Source: an uncultured Monoglobus sp. (lineage in GTDB: Bacteria; Bacillota; Clostridia; Monoglobales; Monoglobaceae). From it: a DNA stretch of 64,000 nt. Position numbers and translations under genes: made by a program. The notes below the pieces were generated by a model, which was given only the letters and a program-made list of their open reading frames with translations, had not been told where the DNA came from and searched no databases. Below are positions 1 to 64,000 of the stretch, piece by piece. Where the stretch lies: NCBI GenBank assembly GCA_947628795.1, contig CANRBF010000007.1, forward strand, positions 1-64,000, in the 5' to 3' direction. Numbering within the stretch: the first letter of the stretch is position 1; each line of letters begins with the position of its first letter.

Positions 1-84
1 TGGTGCGGATAAGAGGATTTGAACCTCCACGTCAAAGACACCGGAACCTAAATCCGGCGCGTCTGCCAATTCCGCCATACCCGC
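1..84 (-). tRNA. tRNA-Leu (anticodon UAG)
   Basis: Read on the minus strand this is a complete class II tRNA. The acceptor arm GCGGGTA pairs with TATCCGC (one G-T pair), followed by discriminator A and an encoded CCA at positions 3-1. The anticodon stem CCGGA/TCCGG encloses loop TTTAGGT, giving anticodon TAG, which reads CUN leucine codons. A long variable arm, as expected for tRNA-Leu, lies between the anticodon stem and the T arm, which holds GGTTCAAATCC. The 3' end coincides with the window edge, so further tRNA genes may lie just outside. Confidence 0.95.
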
Positions 85-127
85 AAGATGTTGGTATTAT
101 ATCAGAATTATCGCTGCTTGTCAATAA

Positions 128-2005
128 TTATTGCGGTTCTTGATGATAGAAGTTATAAACATTTTTTGCGGCGCGTTTATTGACAGCCTTTTCAAGTTCC
201 TCAATTGAGGCGGACTTGATCTTTTTAATTGAAGAAAAATGAAGCAGCAGTTTGTTTCTGTTTGCGGGTCCTATACCTTCTATATTGTCAAGCTCGCTTT
301 TAAGTCCGGCTTTCACGTGTTTTTTTCTGAAGGCGGTTATAGCGAATCTGTGTACTTCCTCCTGCATTGCCGTCAGAAATTTAAACAGTGCCCCGTCTTT
401 GTCGATATCGAACTCATCGTTTATATCGGTCAGCGCGCGGGTTCGGTGTTTGTCATCCTTAACCATACCGTATACCGGTATATCCTCGCCCATTGTTTCA
501 AACAGTTCTCTTATTGCCGAAACATGGCCTTTGCCTCCGTCGAGCAATATCAAGTCGGGGAGCGGAAGAAATTTTGCTTTTGAGGGATCAAGGCTGCCTT
601 CGTTTATCGCATCTTCCTCTCTGTATGCGCGTATTATTCTTCTGTATATAACCTCTCTGGTGCTTTCGTAATCATCGGCGCCTTCGACTGTTTTTATATT
701 AAACTTTCGATATGCCGATTTCAGCGGATGCGCATTGTTGTAAACAACGCATACGCCGACGCTCTGTGCCCCGGATATATTTGAAATGTCATAGCTTTCG
801 ATCCGAAACGGCACATCATCAAGATCAAGCAGGGTCATTAATTCTTTAAGCACAGCGTTTTGATCGGTCTGCTGCTTGTCGCGTTTAAATTTGTGGAGCT
901 TTAAAGATTCTTCCGCATTTTTGTTAACCATTTCCACGGTTCGCGCTTTTGATCCGCGCATCGGAACATGAACATTTATCTTGTGCCCGCATTTTCCCGA
1001 AAGCCAGTCGGATATTTCGTCTCTGTCATCTATTTCCGTCGGGATCAATATCTCTCTCGGTATGCTTGTGGCGGAAAAATAGAACTGCTTTATAAAGCTC
1101 GAAATAAGCTCAGACTGCGTGTCTTCGAAATTTTCAAAAACATATTTTTCGGAGCCGAGCATTTTGCCGCCTCGCATATAAAATACCTGAACACAGCAAT
1201 CCGTTCCGTCGGTAAAAAATCCTATTATATCCCGATTATCCTCATTTGCGGAAACGATCTTTTGTTTTTCGTCAAGCGCTTTGAGATGGGCTATACTATC
1301 TCTGTAGCGCGCTGCTTTTTCGAACTCAAGTTTGTCGGAGGCTTTGAGCATTTTTTCTGTGAGCTCATCGCGCAGCACAGAATAATTGCCCGAAAGCACC
1401 GACGAGATCTTATTAAACATTTCTGAGTATTCCTCGGCGGAGATTTTCCCGTCGCAGGGCGCGCTGCATTGGCCTATGTGATAATAAAGACACGGTCTGT
1501 CTTTGCCTATATCTCTGGGCAATACCTTGTTGCAGGTGCGTATTTTAAATATTTTTTTTATTATCTCAAGGGTATCCTTGGTACTGCTCGAACTCATATA
1601 AGGGCCGAAGTAGCGCGAACCGTCCTTTTCGACTCTGCGCGTGATAAAAATCCGCGGGAACGGCTCTTTCAATGTTATTTTTATATAAGGATATTGTTTG
1701 TCGTCTTTAAGCAGGATATTGTACTTCGGCTTATATTTTTTTATAAGATTACATTCCAGAATCAGCGCTTCGACCTCGCTGTCGGTCAGCATATAGTCAA
1801 AATCATAGATATTTTCGACAAGCCTCAAGGTTTTGACACTATGTCCCTTTGAATTTACAAAATATGAGCTGACGCGGTTCTTCAGCACCTTGCTTTTTCC
1901 CACATAAATAATATCCCCGTTTTCGTTTTTCATAAGATAAACTCCCGGAGACATGGGAAGGGTTTTCAATTTTTCTTTGATTCTTGATAATGTTATATCT
2001 GTCAT
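128..2005 (-). CDS. uvrC: Excinuclease ABC subunit C (UvrC)
   Basis: UvrC makes the 3' and 5' incisions beside a DNA lesion once UvrA and UvrB have loaded. The 625-residue protein has the family's usual length and order. An N-terminal GIY-YIG nuclease domain (about residues 15-95) contains GVYLMKNENGDIIYVGKSK. A UVR motif near 205-240 contacts UvrB, an RNase H-like nuclease domain follows, and a helix-hairpin-helix (NIEGIGPANRNKLL) sits near the C terminus. uvrB and uvrA are about 32 kb away and face the other way. The gene lies downstream of ptsH in the same direction, but a terminator-like hairpin separates the two. No LexA-type operator was recognised. Confidence 0.97.
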   Translation of the reverse strand: MTDITLSRIKEKLKTLPMSPGVYLMKNENGDIIYVGKSKVLKNRVSSYFVNSKGHSVKTLRLVENIYDFDYMLTDSEVEALILECNLIKKYKPKYNILLKDDKQYPYIKITLKEPFPRIFITRRVEKDGSRYFGPYMSSSSTKDTLEIIKKIFKIRTCNKVLPRDIGKDRPCLYYHIGQCSAPCDGKISAEEYSEMFNKISSVLSGNYSVLRDELTEKMLKASDKLEFEKAARYRDSIAHLKALDEKQKIVSANEDNRDIIGFFTDGTDCCVQVFYMRGGKMLGSEKYVFENFEDTQSELISSFIKQFYFSATSIPREILIPTEIDDRDEISDWLSGKCGHKINVHVPMRGSKARTVEMVNKNAEESLKLHKFKRDKQQTDQNAVLKELMTLLDLDDVPFRIESYDISNISGAQSVGVCVVYNNAHPLKSAYRKFNIKTVEGADDYESTREVIYRRIIRAYREEDAINEGSLDPSKAKFLPLPDLILLDGGKGHVSAIRELFETMGEDIPVYGMVKDDKHRTRALTDINDEFDIDKDGALFKFLTAMQEEVHRFAITAFRKKHVKAGLKSELDNIEGIGPANRNKLLLHFSSIKKIKSASIEELEKAVNKRAAKNVYNFYHQEPQ

Positions 2006-2030
2006 GATAATATTATATCCCTGTTTTTAA

Positions 2031-2064
2031 ATAAAAAAGAGTAAACCGAAAATGCGGCTTACCC
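2031..2064 (-). terminator. Rho-independent terminator after ptsH
   Basis: On the minus strand an imperfect stem GTAAGCCG/CGGTTTAC with loop CATTTT is followed by TCTTTTTTA. It lies between the ptsH stop and the uvrC start, so it should reduce read-through from ptsH into uvrC. Confidence 0.65.
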
Positions 2065-2086
2065 GATTATTGCGTATAAAATGGGC

Positions 2087-2347
2087 TTATGCGAAGTTAG
2101 ACGAGATCAAATTAACCAAGTCATTAACGGAATCTTCCTCATCGGGGCCGTCAGCTATGATCGTGATAGTGAGACCTTTGGTTATACCCAGCGACAGGAC
2201 ACCGAGAAGGCTTTTAGCGCTGACTTTTCTGTCATCACTTTCGACCCAAATGCTTGATTTGTACTCATTTGCCTTCTGAATAAAGAATGTCGCCGGTCTT
2301 GCGTGAAGTCCAACTTGATTTTGAACCACTACTTCTTTCATATACAT
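2087..2347 (-). CDS. ptsH: Phosphocarrier protein HPr
   Basis: HPr is the small phosphocarrier of the sugar phosphotransferase system: it takes phosphate from enzyme I on His15 and passes it to sugar permeases. In Firmicutes it is also phosphorylated on Ser46 by HprK for carbon catabolite control. The 86-residue protein has both sites: VGLHARPA places the histidine at residue 15 and VSAKSLLGV places the serine at 46. Keeping the histidine separates it from the paralogue Crh. The first ATG is chosen because AAGGAG lies nine bases upstream and because it gives canonical residue numbering. The matching kinase gene hprK is at 25384-26331. Enzyme I is not in the window. Confidence 0.96.
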   Translation of the reverse strand: MYMKEVVVQNQVGLHARPATFFIQKANEYKSSIWVESDDRKVSAKSLLGVLSLGITKGLTITIIADGPDEEDSVNDLVNLISSNFA

Positions 2348-2413
2348 AATAACCCGCTCCTTACAAACTTTTTAATAATATTCTTATAAGTTGTATATAA
2401 AAATATCACTAAT

Positions 2414-2442
2414 ATAATACAAGAAATTTTCAAATAAGTCAA
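2414..2442 (-). promoter_or_regulatory. Sigma-A promoter of ptsH
   Basis: On the minus strand TTGACT (2442-2437) and TATTAT (2419-2414) are separated by 17 bases, about 65 bases upstream of the ptsH start. Confidence 0.7.
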
Positions 2443-2584
2443 GAGCTAAATTAAATTTTATACATCAAAACCTACGATTTACGTTAATATTGTATGAGTG
2501 CATAAAATCAGAAAAAATTATAAAAATCAATTTGTTAATTTTTTCAGACAGTTTAAATAAAGAGGGTACCGTAACCGACGACCC

Positions 2585-2615
2585 AACGTAGTGATTAGGG
2601 ATTAGTAAATAGGGG
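2585..2615. repeat. TAG-heptad repeat fragment (copy H)
   Basis: AACGTAG opens a run of four TAG triplets spaced exactly seven bases apart (TAG-TGAT-TAG-GGAT-TAG-TAAA-TAG). This is the outer end of the repeat family seen complete at 8566-8731; no hairpin module follows, so it is a remnant or a solo end. Confidence 0.6.
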
Positions 2616-2720
2616 AAAGTTTTATAATAAAAGTGGACACGCAAAGAGGAAAAAACAGCATAAGCGTGGCTCTGCCCCAAACCCCGAAGTTTAACGCATT
2701 GGTTTTCCCTAAAACGGACA

Positions 2721-2746
2721 AAAACGAGCGGCAAGCCGCCCGTTTT
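2721..2746 (-). terminator. Terminator-like hairpin downstream of the 87-residue gene
   Basis: AAAACG-A-GCGGC-AA-GCCGC-C-CGTTTT forms an 11-bp stem with one mismatch. Read on the minus strand it ends in CGTTTTTG, about 100 bases past the stop of the small gene. Confidence 0.5.
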
Positions 2747-2842
2747 AGTGAAAGGTCCGCGAGACCGCGCCGGTTTCTTCGGCAGAACCCAAGCATCATA
2801 TCCAATCCGTTTTCTATCGCCCGCTCCGGTTTGTTAAGCAGT

Positions 2843-3106
2843 TCATCTCACCTCTCGCTGCGCTGCCGCTCTTTCCTTATTGGCAAGCATAGCTTTATGT
2901 TCCGGGCTCCACGATGCCTTGATTGTCCCGCCCGACCAAAAATCACAAAGCGGCTGAACAATGTGCTCAACCAGATCACGCTCCGGATCATACGGCCTTG
3001 TTGTTCCGTCCGCCTGCATAACAACCGATGTTGTTTTCCACGGCATTTTTCTCCACTTCCGCGCCTCCTCGATCTCCTCGGGCGTTCTCTTTCGCTTGTT
3101 TGCCAT
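2843..3106 (-). CDS. Small hypothetical protein beside the recombinase
   Basis: I do not recognise this 87-residue protein. It is hydrophilic and basic at its N terminus (MANKRKRTPEEIEEARKWRK), with a tryptophan- and proline-containing middle and a charged C-terminal helix-like tail (AMLANKERAAAQREVR). No signal peptide, membrane segment or cysteine motif is seen. TTGAGGTG lies four to eleven bases upstream of the ATG, so translation is credible. It is divergent from the serine recombinase, 163 bases away. A small basic gene beside a large serine recombinase could be a recombination directionality factor, but that is inferred only from position and size. Confidence 0.55.
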   Translation of the reverse strand: MANKRKRTPEEIEEARKWRKMPWKTTSVVMQADGTTRPYDPERDLVEHIVQPLCDFWSGGTIKASWSPEHKAMLANKERAAAQREVR

Positions 3107-3269
3107 TTAAATCACCTCAATACATTATATTCGGATCGAATAAATCGGCGAGTTTTTCACAATACAGCGGCCTGTGGCTTTTATCAACAAGGCTTACGAA
3201 ACAAGCCTCTCCTCAGGCAATTCATACGTATATGTTGTATTTGCATATAAATAACAGGGGTGTAATTTC

Positions 3270-4697
3270 ATGAAAATAGCAGCTTGTTATATAAGAGTTT
3301 CAACCGAAGATCAGGTTGAATATTCTCCCGATGCGCAGCTTCGGGCAATGAAAAAATATTGCAGCGACAATGATCTGCTGCTCCCGAAAGAGTTTGTATT
3401 TATTGACGAGGGCATCAGCGGCCGCTCCGCCAAAAAGCGCCCCGCCTTTCAGAACATGATAAAAACGGCCAAGATAAAGCCGAAACCCTTTGATATTATC
3501 CTCGTTCATAAGTTTGACCGCTTTGCCCGCTCCCGCGAGGACAGCGTTGTATATAAATCAATGCTCCGCTCCGAGCTGGGTATTCGGGTCGTGTCGGTCA
3601 CCGAGAACATCGGCGACGATAAGATGAGCGTTATCATGGAATCCATGCTTGAGAGCATGGCGGAATACTATTCTCTCAATTTGTCCGATGAGGTCAAGAA
3701 GGGCATGAGCGAGAAGGCAAAGAAGGGCGGCGTCCAGACAAAAGCCTCTTTCGGTTATCGCGTGGAAAACAATAAGTTTGTCCCCGATGAGGCCGAGGCG
3801 CCGTATGTTAAAGAAATATTTGAGAGCTTTGTCGGCGGCGAGGGCTACGGCAGTATTGCCCGCCGCATGAACGCCCGCGGCATCAAGACGCACCGCGGAA
3901 ACAAATTTGAGCAGCGCACGATCCGGTATATAATCGGCAATCCCGTGTATATCGGCACACTCCGCTGGACTCCGTCGGGCAAAGTCGAGCGCAACACACC
4001 GAGCTCCGACACGATTTTTCTTGAAAACCAGCACGAGCCTCTTGTCACCCGCGAGGTCTGGGACGCCGCACAGGAAAAAAGAAACAAGCTCTTGCTCAAT
4101 TCCAGAAAATATTTAAAGAACTACAGCGGCGTTTCATATTGGCTGTCTGGCCTTTTGGTCTGTGACAACTGCGGCAAGACCCTGAGCCGCGCAGGAAAGT
4201 ATTTACAATGCGGCGGATATTCAAAATCTCTGTGCAACGTCTCTCACTCTATCCCGATCGCCCGCGCCGAGGAGCTTGTCATAAATCAGCTGAAAGAAGA
4301 TTATAACAATATCATGAGCGTCAGTCTCAAAAGCGACGGACGTAAAATAAAAAACACCGACGAGACCAAAACATACGCCGACGCGATCACCCGCCTCGAA
4401 AAATCCTTGCAGCGCGCCAAAGACGCCTACATCGCCGGAGTGGACACGCTCGAGGAATACGGCGAAAACAAAACGCGAATACAAGATGAGATCGAAAAAA
4501 ATAAAAAATTGCTTAAAGATCAGAACACACAAAAATCCACAGACCCAAAAGAACTGGCCGAAAACATAATGCGCGCGATCGAGTTTATCCAAGACGAAAA
4601 CAACTCCCTCGAGGACAAAAACAAAGCCTTAAAACAATTCATCTCCAAAATCACATTTATAAAAGCCTCAAAAACCCTTGAAATCACGTATTTTTAA
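3270..4697 (+). CDS. Large serine recombinase (integrase/excisionase type)
   Basis: Large serine recombinases cut and rejoin DNA at short attachment sites through a 5'-phosphoserine link, and integrate or excise phages and related elements. The 475-residue protein has all expected parts. The catalytic resolvase domain (1-150) has CYIRVSTEDQ with the nucleophile at Ser11 and the KFDRFARS arginine motif. It is followed by a recombinase domain (about 160-265), a zinc ribbon (CDNC ... CGGYSKSLC, about 300-325), a coiled coil (about 370-440) and a short tail. It appears intact. It ends only about 25 bases before the point where cotJC breaks off on the other strand, as expected when an integrase gene lies next to its attachment site. 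The SD is a modest AGGGGTG. Confidence 0.93.
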   Translation: MKIAACYIRVSTEDQVEYSPDAQLRAMKKYCSDNDLLLPKEFVFIDEGISGRSAKKRPAFQNMIKTAKIKPKPFDIILVHKFDRFARSREDSVVYKSMLRSELGIRVVSVTENIGDDKMSVIMESMLESMAEYYSLNLSDEVKKGMSEKAKKGGVQTKASFGYRVENNKFVPDEAEAPYVKEIFESFVGGEGYGSIARRMNARGIKTHRGNKFEQRTIRYIIGNPVYIGTLRWTPSGKVERNTPSSDTIFLENQHEPLVTREVWDAAQEKRNKLLLNSRKYLKNYSGVSYWLSGLLVCDNCGKTLSRAGKYLQCGGYSKSLCNVSHSIPIARAEELVINQLKEDYNNIMSVSLKSDGRKIKNTDETKTYADAITRLEKSLQRAKDAYIAGVDTLEEYGENKTRIQDEIEKNKKLLKDQNTQKSTDPKELAENIMRAIEFIQDENNSLEDKNKALKQFISKITFIKASKTLEITYF

Positions 4698-4707
4698 TTT
4701 TTTATCA

Positions 4708-4815
4708 TCAAACGCAATTCGGACCGCCGTACTGCGCAACGACATAGGACGCGAGCTTGGGGTTGGGGTTTTTGATGTTAACCGGGTATTGAAGCTTTTT
4801 TTGATAGTTCCACAT
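4708..4815 (-). pseudogene. cotJC: 5' fragment of spore coat gene cotJC, truncated
   Basis: A strong SD (AGGAGG, eight bases upstream) precedes an ATG whose product starts MWNYQKKLQYPVNI and runs to AQYGGP. From memory of the family this matches the N terminus of CotJC, a manganese-catalase-like coat protein of nearly 200 residues. After GGP the family continues D-G-E-L, whereas here the frame reads N-C-V and stops, leaving 35 residues. The break falls at the GGTCCG hexamer (about 4720-4725 on the plus strand). It follows cotJB by 17 bases, as in a normal cotJABC operon. The serine recombinase gene ends 10 bases beyond the stop in the opposite direction. The 3' part was not found in this window. 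Confidence 0.85.
4713..4736. other. Candidate attachment-site junction inside cotJC
   Basis: This is where cotJC-like sequence (right) meets element sequence (left). The transition lies at or just after GGTCCG of the coat gene (plus-strand CGGACC, 4720-4725). A short inverted repeat CGCA...TGCG brackets it (4713-4716 and 4733-4736). The exact crossover dinucleotide cannot be set from one junction. Confidence 0.45.
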
Positions 4816-4832
4816 ATATTCTTTCCTCCTTA

Positions 4833-5078
4833 CTATTGGTTATCCCAGGGCCAGGGGTCGCATATCCAGTTGAATTTGTCGGGGTCGTCGGCGCTCATTG
4901 AGGTGAGCGGGCCGAAGTTTTTCTCGTATTCCGCAACAAGTTCTTTGGTCTTTTCGGCCATAGCCTTATGTTTTTTTATCGCTTCCTTGTCGGTCGGGTG
5001 GGTGTCGAGATATAAATTCCACTCCTTCTCGGCGAAAGCGTAAGCCGAGATCTTATTTAAAAGTTCATTTCTTGTCAT
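4833..5078 (-). CDS. cotJB: Spore coat protein CotJB
   Basis: CotJB is a small component of the spore coat, made in the mother cell with CotJA and CotJC. The 81-residue product has the family pattern: an N-terminal helix, the NLYLDTHPTDKEAI segment, a second amphipathic helix, KNFGPLT, and a tryptophan/proline-rich end WICDPWPWDNQ. Its ATG overlaps the cotJA stop by four bases (ATGA), so the two are translationally coupled. The third operon gene, cotJC, starts 17 bases downstream but is truncated. Confidence 0.92.
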   Translation of the reverse strand: MTRNELLNKISAYAFAEKEWNLYLDTHPTDKEAIKKHKAMAEKTKELVAEYEKNFGPLTSMSADDPDKFNWICDPWPWDNQ

Positions 5079-5287
5079 TCGGGCGCGCCTCCGTTCTTAA
5101 AAAGTGTCTCGCCGTTTATCTGGCGGCCGTACACGCCGAAGGGCTTGTCGAGTATCGGGAATATCGTGCCCTGCTCCAGTCCGTACTCGGGGTCGAAAAG
5201 GTTCCTCATATCCTCCTGCTGTATCGGCACATAGGCGTAGCCGACCATCATGTTGCCGGGCTGTCTTGTCTCGCTCGAATATGGCAT
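5075..5287 (-). CDS. cotJA: Spore coat-associated protein CotJA
   Basis: This is the first gene of the cotJ coat operon, whose products join the inner spore coat. The start is set at 5287: upstream in-frame sequence lacks coat similarity, while GAAAGGAATG lies just before this ATG. The 70-residue product is rich in proline, tyrosine and glutamine (VGYAYVPIQQ, LFDPEYGLEQGTIFPILDKP), as in CotJA proteins. A CATATAAT sequence at 5359-5352 on the same strand resembles a sigma-E -10 element, fitting mother-cell expression. The gene is divergent from the DUF421 gene. Confidence 0.9.
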   Translation of the reverse strand: MPYSSETRQPGNMMVGYAYVPIQQEDMRNLFDPEYGLEQGTIFPILDKPFGVYGRQINGETLFKNGGAPE

Positions 5288-6488: not shown

Positions 6489-6720
6489 CGCAGTGATTAG
6501 CGATTAGTAAATATTGATTAGGCCCCCTCAGTCGGGCAAAGCCCGACAGCATTAAGGAAGCTCTTGGTCAAAATTGCAAGCAATTTTGAAAGATAGCTTT
6601 GAACCCGCAAGCAAGCTTGCTGATTATCCCCGAGGGGGCGCCTATTTTATGCCTCCTCCCGGGAGGAGGTGGCTGCGGCTTGCCGCAGACGGAGGTGGGA
6701 ATGTAGAGACTAGGCACTAA
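6486..6720. repeat. TAG-heptad MITE-like repeat, copy A (carries an insert)
   Basis: The left end has the 7-base-spaced series CAG-TGAT-TAG-CGAT-TAG-TAAA-TAT-TGAT-TAG. Module 1 (CCCCCTCAGTC, hairpin, GACAGC) starts at 6524 but is split by about 77 bases of unrelated sequence before its CCCCGAGGGGGCGCC end. Module 2 (GCCTCCTCCCGGGAGGAGG, hairpin, ACGGAGGTGGG) occupies 6651-6700, and a short degraded right end follows. It sits between two convergent genes. Confidence 0.8.
6568..6589. repeat. Perfect hairpin inside the insert of repeat copy A
   Basis: TCAAAATTG-CAAG-CAATTTTGA has perfect 9-bp arms. A second palindrome, AGCAAGCTTGCT, lies at 6610-6621. Both are within the roughly 77 bases that interrupt module 1. 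Confidence 0.75.
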
Positions 6721-8550: not shown

Positions 8551-8565
8551 TGTTTTTTACCTCCT

Positions 8566-8731
8566 AACGTAGGAACTAGGGATTAGGATTTCCCCCTCAG
8601 TCGGGCAGTGCCCGACAGCTCCCCCGAGGGGGCGCCAATCTAAATTTGCCTCCTCCCGGGAGGAGGTGTCAGGCGTAAGCCTGACGGAGGTGGGTCCTAG
8701 TTCCCAGTACCTACTCCCTAATTCCTACGTT
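8566..8731. repeat. TAG-heptad MITE-like repeat, copy B (complete reference copy)
   Basis: A 166-base unit with near-perfect terminal inverted repeats: the left end starts AACGTAGGAACTAGGGATTA and the right end, read inward, AACGTAGGAATTAGGGAGTA. Each end carries TAG every seven bases. Module 1 (8592-8636) has hairpins GTCGGGC-AGT-GCCCGAC and CCCCC-GA-GGGGG. Module 2 (8648-8694) is a diverged copy in the opposite orientation, with CCTCCTCCCGGGAGGAGG and GTCAGGC-GTAA-GCCTGAC. The right end supplies the stop codon of the upstream carboxypeptidase gene; the left end touches the hslO ribosome binding site. Confidence 0.85.
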
Positions 8732-9886
8732 GTTTTTTATCATTTCGCTCCAGTTTTTGAAAACGGTGCCGATGTCGTGCTTTATGTCATTGAAAAATGT
8801 GTCTTTTGACGGCTTTACAAGGTCTATGTCATCGGTAGCGATCAAATTAAAATTGCCGTAGTTCTCACCGTTGACCGTGACGCTGCCCGTTCCTAGGGCG
8901 TCGCCCGCGTGTATCGGCAGCGCGATATCATCATTGACCTCGGTTTTTACCTCAATTTTATCCTCGTCACAGACGGGAAAGGTGTAGGTCTTGTCGGGAA
9001 CAAGGCCGCTGTAGCCGAAAATTCCCTTGCCTACGGTTATTTTGTCGACGACCGTCTCGGTCGAAGTCAAGTCCTCGATATGGTATTTTTCGAACATCTC
9101 GTTTTGGAGATTCGTGTGGTCGTTCCAATCGTCGGGGTCATTGAGCGTCACGCATATCAGCGTCATGCCGTCTCTGGTGACCGCGGTTACGAGACACCTG
9201 CCCGCGGCGTTGGTGTAGCCCGTCTTGACGCCCACGCAGCCGTCCAGCACACCGAGCAGCTTGTTGTGGTTCACCATTTCGCGGTTATAGTCCTTGCCCT
9301 CCCACGGCACCGACTTTTCCTTTGTGGCGCAGACCTGCGCGAACGTCGGATCCTTGAGCGCCTCGGCGGTTATTATCGCCAGTTCGTGCGCGGTGGTGTA
9401 GTGCGTGTCGGACGGTAGGCCGTTGGGATTGTCGAAATGCGTGTGCGTGAGGCCCATGTCGTTTGTCGCGGTCTCGTTCATCATCTCAACAAAGCGGTCG
9501 ACGCTTCCGCCGATTGCTTCGGCTATCGCGACTGCCGCGTCGTTGCCCGACTGAAGCATGAGGCCATACAGCAAATTTTCCATTGTTATGTGCTCGCCCT
9601 TTTCAAGATACATGCCCGAGCCCTCAACGCCCGAGGCATTCTCGCTGACCTCAACAACGTCGCTGAGAGTTCCGTATTTCGAGGTTAAATAGCCCGTCAT
9701 GATCTTAGTCGTGCTCGCCATAGGCAGCTCCCAGTCGGGATTTTTGGCGTACAGCACCCTGCCGGAGTTTTGCTCGATCACGGCCGCGGCTTTGGCGCTG
9801 TTGTCCGCGGCGAATGCGGGCGCCGTGAGATTAAACGCGAGCATAAGCGCCAGAACGGCGCACAGGACGATTTTGTGCAGTTTCAT
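8711..9886 (-). CDS. D-alanyl-D-alanine carboxypeptidase (DacF/PBP5 family)
   Basis: A secreted low-molecular-mass penicillin-binding protein (peptidase S11) that trims the last D-alanine from peptidoglycan stem peptides. It has a signal peptide (residues 1-27, ending APAFAA), the SxxK nucleophile motif STTK (about 62-65), SGN (about 117-119), KTG in VKTGYT, and a beta-rich C-terminal domain. The start at 9886 is preferred over the ATG nine bases upstream because CGGAG directly touches that earlier ATG and is well spaced for this one. The last residues (N)VGIRE and the TAG stop are encoded by the end of repeat copy B, so the native C terminus, perhaps an amphipathic anchor, has probably been replaced. 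Confidence 0.92.
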   Translation of the reverse strand: MKLHKIVLCAVLALMLAFNLTAPAFAADNSAKAAAVIEQNSGRVLYAKNPDWELPMASTTKIMTGYLTSKYGTLSDVVEVSENASGVEGSGMYLEKGEHITMENLLYGLMLQSGNDAAVAIAEAIGGSVDRFVEMMNETATNDMGLTHTHFDNPNGLPSDTHYTTAHELAIITAEALKDPTFAQVCATKEKSVPWEGKDYNREMVNHNKLLGVLDGCVGVKTGYTNAAGRCLVTAVTRDGMTLICVTLNDPDDWNDHTNLQNEMFEKYHIEDLTSTETVVDKITVGKGIFGYSGLVPDKTYTFPVCDEDKIEVKTEVNDDIALPIHAGDALGTGSVTVNGENYGNFNLIATDDIDLVKPSKDTFFNDIKHDIGTVFKNWSEMIKNNVGIRE

Positions 9887-9950
9887 TTGTTTCATCTCCG
9901 TTTGTTGGTTCTCATTAAATATATTCGGATATATTGGAATTATTCGGATA

Positions 9951-10112
9951 TTAGTAACTAGGGACTAGGAACCCCCCTCAGCCGCCGTTGGCGGCAGCTC
10001 CCCCCCCAGGGGGCGCCTAATTAAAGCCTCCTCCCGGGAGGAGGTGTCAGGCGTAGCCTGACGGAGGTGGGTCCTAGTACCTATATCCTATTTCCTAGTC
10101 TCTATTCCACGT
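9951..10112. repeat. TAG-heptad MITE-like repeat, copy C
   Basis: The left end reads TAG-TAAC-TAG-GGAC-TAG. Module 1 (CCCCCTCAGCC, hairpin, CAGCTCCCCCCCCAGGGGGCGCC) and module 2 (GCCTCCTCCCGGGAGGAGG, GTCAGGCGTAGCCTGAC) follow. The right end read inward has five TAGs at 7-base spacing after ACGTGGAA. The first of these is the stop codon of the amidase gene. Confidence 0.85.
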
Positions 10113-63869: not shown

Positions 63870-64000
63870 TCGATGAAAGTCCTCGTGGAACGTCGAGGGC
63901 GCCGTCCCTTACGGATTTGGGGAGCGCTTGATGTTAGGCTCGCCCCTTGGGGAGAGCTGTCAGCAAAGCTGACTGAGAGGGGTTTGTTTTCCAAATCGCA
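63870..64000. repeat. Dispersed hairpin repeat, copy G (cut by the window edge)
   Basis: GTCGAGGGCGCCGTCCCTTACGG is followed by TTAGGCTCGCCCCTTGGGGA, hairpin GTCAGC-AAA-GCTGAC and TGAGAGGGGTTTG, then CCAAATCGCA at the window end. The last 70 bases match copy D at 26458-26529 apart from the hairpin sequence. No TAG-heptad end is visible on its left side. Confidence 0.65.

Follow-up and report, generated by a model that had tools for sequence, protein, structure and literature searches.

The locus described here raises a question that can be put simply: why does cotJC, a spore-coat gene of the Mn-catalase family, break off after 32 codons beside the gene for a large serine recombinase, and is it dead or only divided? 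Expression of cotJ in the mother cell is established for B. subtilis. Several other sporulation genes (sigK, spsM, spoVFB, spoVR, gerE and yabG) are known to be split by removable elements (PMC5025042, PMC4191935, PMC5595907, PMC10747680), and an earlier note on this DNA had suggested that cotJC might be a further target of this kind, the element being larger than it seemed, rearranged or decayed. The DNA comes from a Monoglobus genome (G000), a draft of 2.35 Mb in 25 contigs; the window, by which we mean the whole stretch of 64,000 nucleotides analysed, spans contig C7 from its start to position 64,000, and C2 and C8 are other contigs of the same genome. G-numbers denote genomes and L-numbers loci; site A denotes cotJC codons 31–35, and further interruption sites lie near codons 62, 65, 68 and 136. 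The relevant features of the window are collected in Table 1.

Table 1. Coordinates of the cotJC element and adjoining features (window positions, unless a contig is named)
Feature	Position	Strand	Remarks
Host locus ptsH – uvrC – tRNA-Leu	1-2612	-	Colinear with G010 and G006; followed by tRNA-Asn in relatives
Breakpoint zone, element versus host locus	2612-2861	.	Element homology begins at 2858-2871
87-aa ORF	2843-3106	-	Divergent from recombinase; candidate recombination directionality factor
Large serine recombinase, 475 aa	3270-4697	+	PF00239, PF07508, PF13408; stop 23 bp before core
Element-side attP half-site	4686-4720	+	Inverted repeat of the arm on C2
8-bp crossover core GGCGGTCC of attL	4721-4728	-	Identical core in attR, C2:5050-5057
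cotJC 5' part	4708-4815	-	32 CotJC codons, then N-C-V-stop supplied by the element
cotJB, intact	4833-5078	-	PF12652
cotJA, intact	5075-5287	-	PF11007

Much of what the earlier note had read from the letters was borne out: profile matches show cotJA and cotJB to be intact, the 32 CotJC codons do run into N-C-V-stop, and the stop codons of the cotJC fragment and the recombinase gene, on opposite strands, are 10 bases apart. Comparison with uninterrupted relatives places the break at codon 33; a conserved CATATAAT-like block lies upstream of cotJA. The note had proposed a search for a CotJC C-terminal fragment beside a second copy of the junction core, and just such a fragment was found on C2, about 5 kb from the start of the contig, where the cotJC 3' part comprises 166 open codons (C2:5041-5541) and the CotJC match extends in open frame from codon 24 to codon 192 (C2:5032-5538). 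The window junction reads TAC-GGCGGTCC-GAATTGCGTTTGATGATAAA and that on C2 TTTATCGTCAAATGCAATTA-GGCGGTCC-CAACGGC, and the element-side arms of the two junctions are inverted repeats of each other at 17 of 22 positions, a fit that none of 20,000 shuffles equalled. Because the 3' fragment exists, the same core stands at both junctions and the inverted arms match, the split is not a chance event. Joining the halves at the core computationally gives an uninterrupted CotJC of 192 codons; the same operation yields a frame of 192 codons in G010 and, once two elements are removed, one of 194 in G002.

Inverted-repeat arms, which the attP sites of serine integrases likewise possess, are also present in G010, G002 and L118, and across these three and G000 the arm sequences vary in step with the divergence of the recombinases. 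In a count of distinct loci (including L119 and L131, assigned from separate searches), the core mostly lies 20–26 bp beyond the recombinase stop, in both orientations of the element. On a contig from a Ruminococcus metagenome-assembled genome (L117, 4181-4260), the recombinase gene is followed by an uninterrupted attP-like palindrome, which fits an unintegrated or excised form.

Relatives with uninterrupted cotJABC, for which the note had also proposed looking, are available within the genus. Among 12 Monoglobus members, cotJC is uninterrupted in four (G003, G005, G008 and G011), and in G003 and G008 the empty site carries the same core sequence. In five (G000, G002, G007, G009 and G010) it is split at site A, and G001, in which the CotJC match starts at codon 26, may be a further example; in G004 the interruption is at a second site, and both G007 and G002 have two interruptions. 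The recombinase gene is present in exactly the five genomes with a site-A split, in one copy each and always at cotJC, and is absent where cotJC is intact. The site-A element of the closed genome G002 is only 2.6 kb long, and the second cotJC element of that organism, which includes genes for an endolysin and for tail proteins, would measure about 41 kb if its contig is circular.

The association reaches well beyond the genus. A scan of 84,980 species genomes yielded 22 relatives of the recombinase, most of which abut a cotJC half at the same codons, and the isolate Anaerovorax odorimutans DSM 5092 is among those with the gene in cotJC. Among 391 Clostridia genomes sampled evenly, 17 from outside Monoglobus had the recombinase family (cut-off E < 1e-110), and in all 16 that could be evaluated it was in site A of cotJC. 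About 36 distinct insertions are at the same codons (19 facing the 5' part and 17 the 3' part), and close relatives with an uninterrupted cotJC exist. To judge from these placements, the recombinase is a member of a cotJC-specific family. Many cotJC genes have a second interruption at one of the four further sites, making at least five sites in all, and other recombinases, 24–32% identical, lie beside some of these. In a class-wide CotJC search about one-eighth of the long matches listed start at such a site rather than at codon 1 (a figure counted by eye, with a few of the matches at contig ends). At L132 and L137 an interruption is present near codon 136, the frame being lost after 'EDLAAD' or 'EDMAAD'.

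Complete elements with both halves on one contig range from 2.6 to 15.5 kb (L118, 5.6 kb; L143, 2.9 kb; L147, a site-B element of 5.4 kb; L153, 15.5 kb; L154 and L155, about 3.2 kb; and that of G002), and another site-B element, L156, is 3.9 kb long with a site-A recombinase upstream. In all of these (L118, L143, L147, L153–L156 and G002) the cotJC halves are in direct orientation around one contiguous element. No terminal overlaps indicative of circular contigs were found in the short loci tested.

We think it quite probable that cotJC is the attB site of a large-serine-recombinase element and that the recombinase rejoins the halves in the sporulating mother cell. Integration at attB (codons 31–35) would have generated attL, with the cotJC 5' part in the window, and attR, with the 3' part on C2; in the mother cell, recombination between attL and attR, carried out by the recombinase and a directionality factor, would then give a complete cotJC, in most species with excision of a circle of 2.6–15.5 kb or larger. 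The forespore would retain the split copy, and the element would therefore be inherited. The timing we infer by analogy with skin, SP-beta, gin and yin, so that cotJC would probably be rejoined only at spore formation. An intact spoIVA is counted in favour of such restoration.

One alternative is that an ordinary mobile element has inserted into cotJC and killed it, a conserved coat gene serving merely as attB and a paralogue making it dispensable. G000 does have an intact CotJC paralogue, on C8 (34–35% identity). The earlier note had taken an intact second cotJC, with no 3' fragment anywhere, as the mark of a simple pseudogene; the paralogue exists, but so does the 3' fragment on C2. Movement of the element would also fit a dead gene: between G000 and G009 recombinase dS (0.30) is below cotJC dS (0.96), and on these distances the element is one that moves horizontally between species. 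Similarly, G007 (L040), which is 99% complete, keeps the recombinase and the middle piece of cotJC and has neither spoIVA, cotJB, the other cotJC parts nor the rest of cotJ; it may have lost sporulation, and not every carrier of the element need therefore be a spore-former. Against this, the reduced elements of 2.6–3.2 kb retain an intact recombinase and open cotJC parts, and the middle parts of doubly split genes are also open. A decayed remnant or simple pseudogene is likewise disfavoured in G000, with its open 3' part, complete att sites and intact recombinase; the Monoglobus recombinases are constrained (omega 0.09–0.16).

The remaining evidence against a dead gene comes from selection. 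Between G000 and G010 the 192 codons of cotJC differ by 31 synonymous and no nonsynonymous changes, which at first sight might be taken as proof of function while split. We have set this aside: the pair is weak evidence because the recombinases (dS 0.18) are closer than cotJC (0.28) or uvrC (0.59), and the insertions may be younger than the divergence of the species. More telling are four independent pairs of loci from different species (L104/L107, L106/L111, L109/L120 and L133/L134), in most of which recombinase dS is similar to or above that of cotJC. With recombinase divergence roughly equal to, or greater than, that of cotJC, the insertion is probably common to both members of each pair by descent; the elements are colinear in the pairs, and L154 and L155, larger stretches around L133 and L134, are 90% identical over 3.46 kb. 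Combined, the pairs show 28 synonymous and 4 nonsynonymous changes in cotJC. Under neutral decay, nonsynonymous changes would be expected to outnumber synonymous ones several-fold. These counts imply purifying selection on the split gene and its continued use, and it would therefore have been rejoined at some time. With all this taken together, we regard insertion into a dead cotJC as distinctly unlikely, and return to developmental rejoining as the preferred reading.

How rejoining might take place in G000 is a separate matter, since its two cotJC halves lie on separate contigs and both adjoin host DNA. An ordinary contiguous insert does not describe this genome: about 2 kb inward of the cotJC junction the element ends at the ptsH, uvrC and tRNA-Leu locus, and the other att half is beside tRNA-Asn. 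In G010, G006 and G003, ptsH and tRNA-Asn are neighbours, whereas the order in G000 is ptsH, then the element, then the cotJC 5' part, and on C2 it is tRNA-Asn, then an att arm of about 35 bp, then the cotJC 3' part (join at about C2:5012). The two joins are thus reciprocal between the same two loci, ptsH | tRNA-Asn and cotJC. Of the possibilities that the earlier note had left standing, rearrangement has been upheld by the joined host locus, and the decayed remnant has not, the parts being intact. In G000 the breakpoint coincides with the 3' end of the 87-aa ORF; G007 likewise keeps just this ORF and the recombinase gene beside other genes.

Could the joins at window 2612-2861 and on C2 simply be chimeric, the product of assembly or binning? 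G000 is a 25-contig draft and C7 starts at a tRNA, so the idea deserves consideration; yet the joins are reciprocal, uvrC is single copy, and cotJC splits are seen again in G002, which is a closed genome, and in numerous independent assemblies. We consider an artefact highly improbable.

The simplest single event on one chromosome that would account for both joins is a large inversion. This could have come about in two ways: recombination may have taken place between attB in cotJC and an attP resident between ptsH and tRNA-Asn, or an element already inserted may have been broken. GC skew (on C7, C2 and in relatives) did not separate the inverted from the direct orientation. Dispersed repeat-like blocks (AACGTAGTGATTAGGGATTAGT, CCTCCTCCCGGGAGGAGG) lie between genes at window positions 2575-2612, 6490-6710, 8565-8745 and 9950-10100, and the block at the breakpoint may have favoured the rearrangement. 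A suspected structured RNA at C2:2400-2850 matched no known Rfam family at the gathering threshold.

If an inversion did join the halves to the two sides of the host locus, restoring cotJC in G000 would require a chromosomal inversion and not the excision of a small circle. We suggest tentatively, and at somewhat less than an even chance, that a large segment of the G000 chromosome is inverted in a programmed way, specifically at sporulation, and that cotJC is thereby restored, attL and attR recombining to leave attP between ptsH and tRNA-Asn. If so, an intervening element has been turned into a developmental chromosome-inversion switch. It may be instead that, in G000 only, the rearrangement stranded the halves and cotJC can no longer be efficiently restored, the family otherwise working by developmental excision. 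That the halves are on separate contigs with host genes between them, and that the insertion appears recent, would sit well with such stranding, but both att half-sites, the recombinase and the 87-aa ORF have been preserved up to the breakpoint, and a related serine recombinase, CD1231 of C. difficile, does invert DNA between oppositely oriented attP and attB (PMC5025042). We rate stranding as rather unlikely.

The recombinase itself has Resolvase, Recombinase and zinc-ribbon domains and an invariant N-terminal catalytic serine (S11, in YIRVSTEDQ). The only other gene in the window part of the element is the 87-aa ORF, and no phage structural or lysis genes were found there. This ORF is present in all five Monoglobus site-A elements and in no other genome among the 291 of a class-wide sample; it is under purifying selection, and is kept in the reduced elements of G000, G007 and G002. 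Because the recombinase, ORF and att arms have repeatedly been retained together, we propose its product as a candidate directionality factor. It matched no protein family, its AlphaFold model was poor (pTM 0.36) and unfit for a structure search, and inspection by eye upstream of both genes revealed no convincing sigma-E or sigma-K promoter.

By its anatomy, the cotJC element belongs with skin, gin, SP-beta, vfbin, vrin and yin. Like skin in sigK (recombinases SpoIVCA in B. subtilis, CD1231/CD1234 in C. difficile), it has a large serine recombinase and splits a mother-cell sporulation gene; skin also has a short direct core, inverted arms and a small directionality factor (PMC5025042), and the cotJC element has the same core and arm layout, although its factor is only a candidate. 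It differs from skin in its target, in having no phage genes in the window part, and in the G000 copy being split by a chromosomal rearrangement. Gin in gerE of B. cereus ATCC10987 is likewise a non-phage element with serine recombinases, an accessory factor and a 9-bp core, but measures 28.6 kb and has three recombinases (PMC5595907), whereas the reduced cotJC elements have one in 2.6–3.2 kb. SP-beta in spsM, vfbin in spoVFB, vrin in spoVR and yin in yabG are also associated with sporulation genes restored by site-specific recombination, but these are other genes with one insertion each (PMC4191935, PMC10747680). The cotJC system is set apart by its target gene, number of sites, frequent double splits, use of both orientations and the G000 rearrangement. 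The NCBIfam model for XisF, the developmental-excision recombinase of the fdxN element of heterocyst-forming cyanobacteria, gave a near full-length alignment to our recombinase (2e-33), but concerns a different gene and organism and scored far below the curated cut-off (116 bits against 375).

In the literature searched, which covered few subscription papers, cotJC was not found among the targets of intervening elements; the C. difficile phage phi027 merely adjoins a CotJC homologue. In Clostridia such elements appear to have entered cotJC often, splitting it in dozens of spore-forming gut bacteria at up to five places, and in many gut genomes the gene is liable to be annotated as a pseudogene or missed. 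With so many instances, some reduced to little more than a recombinase gene, one can compare elements to learn how they become smaller, which protein supplies directionality and for what reason insertion is tolerated in coat genes.

Finally, some minor observations may be recorded. Viral contigs searched for relatives of the recombinase gave one weak match only (37%). A complete circular phage genome from woodrat faeces (PQ006094.1) encodes an integrase 42% identical to the recombinase, and behind it (L162, 2990-3030) is an imperfect palindrome, possibly attP, its fit (15/20) not being clearly above the background of the locus. A second, distantly related large serine recombinase of 550 aa adjoins tRNA-Asn on C2 of G000 (L004, 3188-4961) and in G008 (L067, 6156-7929), and tRNA-Asn is probably its integration site. 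The cotJC 3' part at L106 (1677-1800), from a Ruminococcus metagenome-assembled genome, contains an in-frame tandem duplication of 51 bp. Lastly, the 3.2-kb element of G287 carries a gene resembling Mn/Fe superoxide dismutase (L155, 1404-2033; named by eye), which thus sits within a gene for a Mn-catalase-like coat protein.
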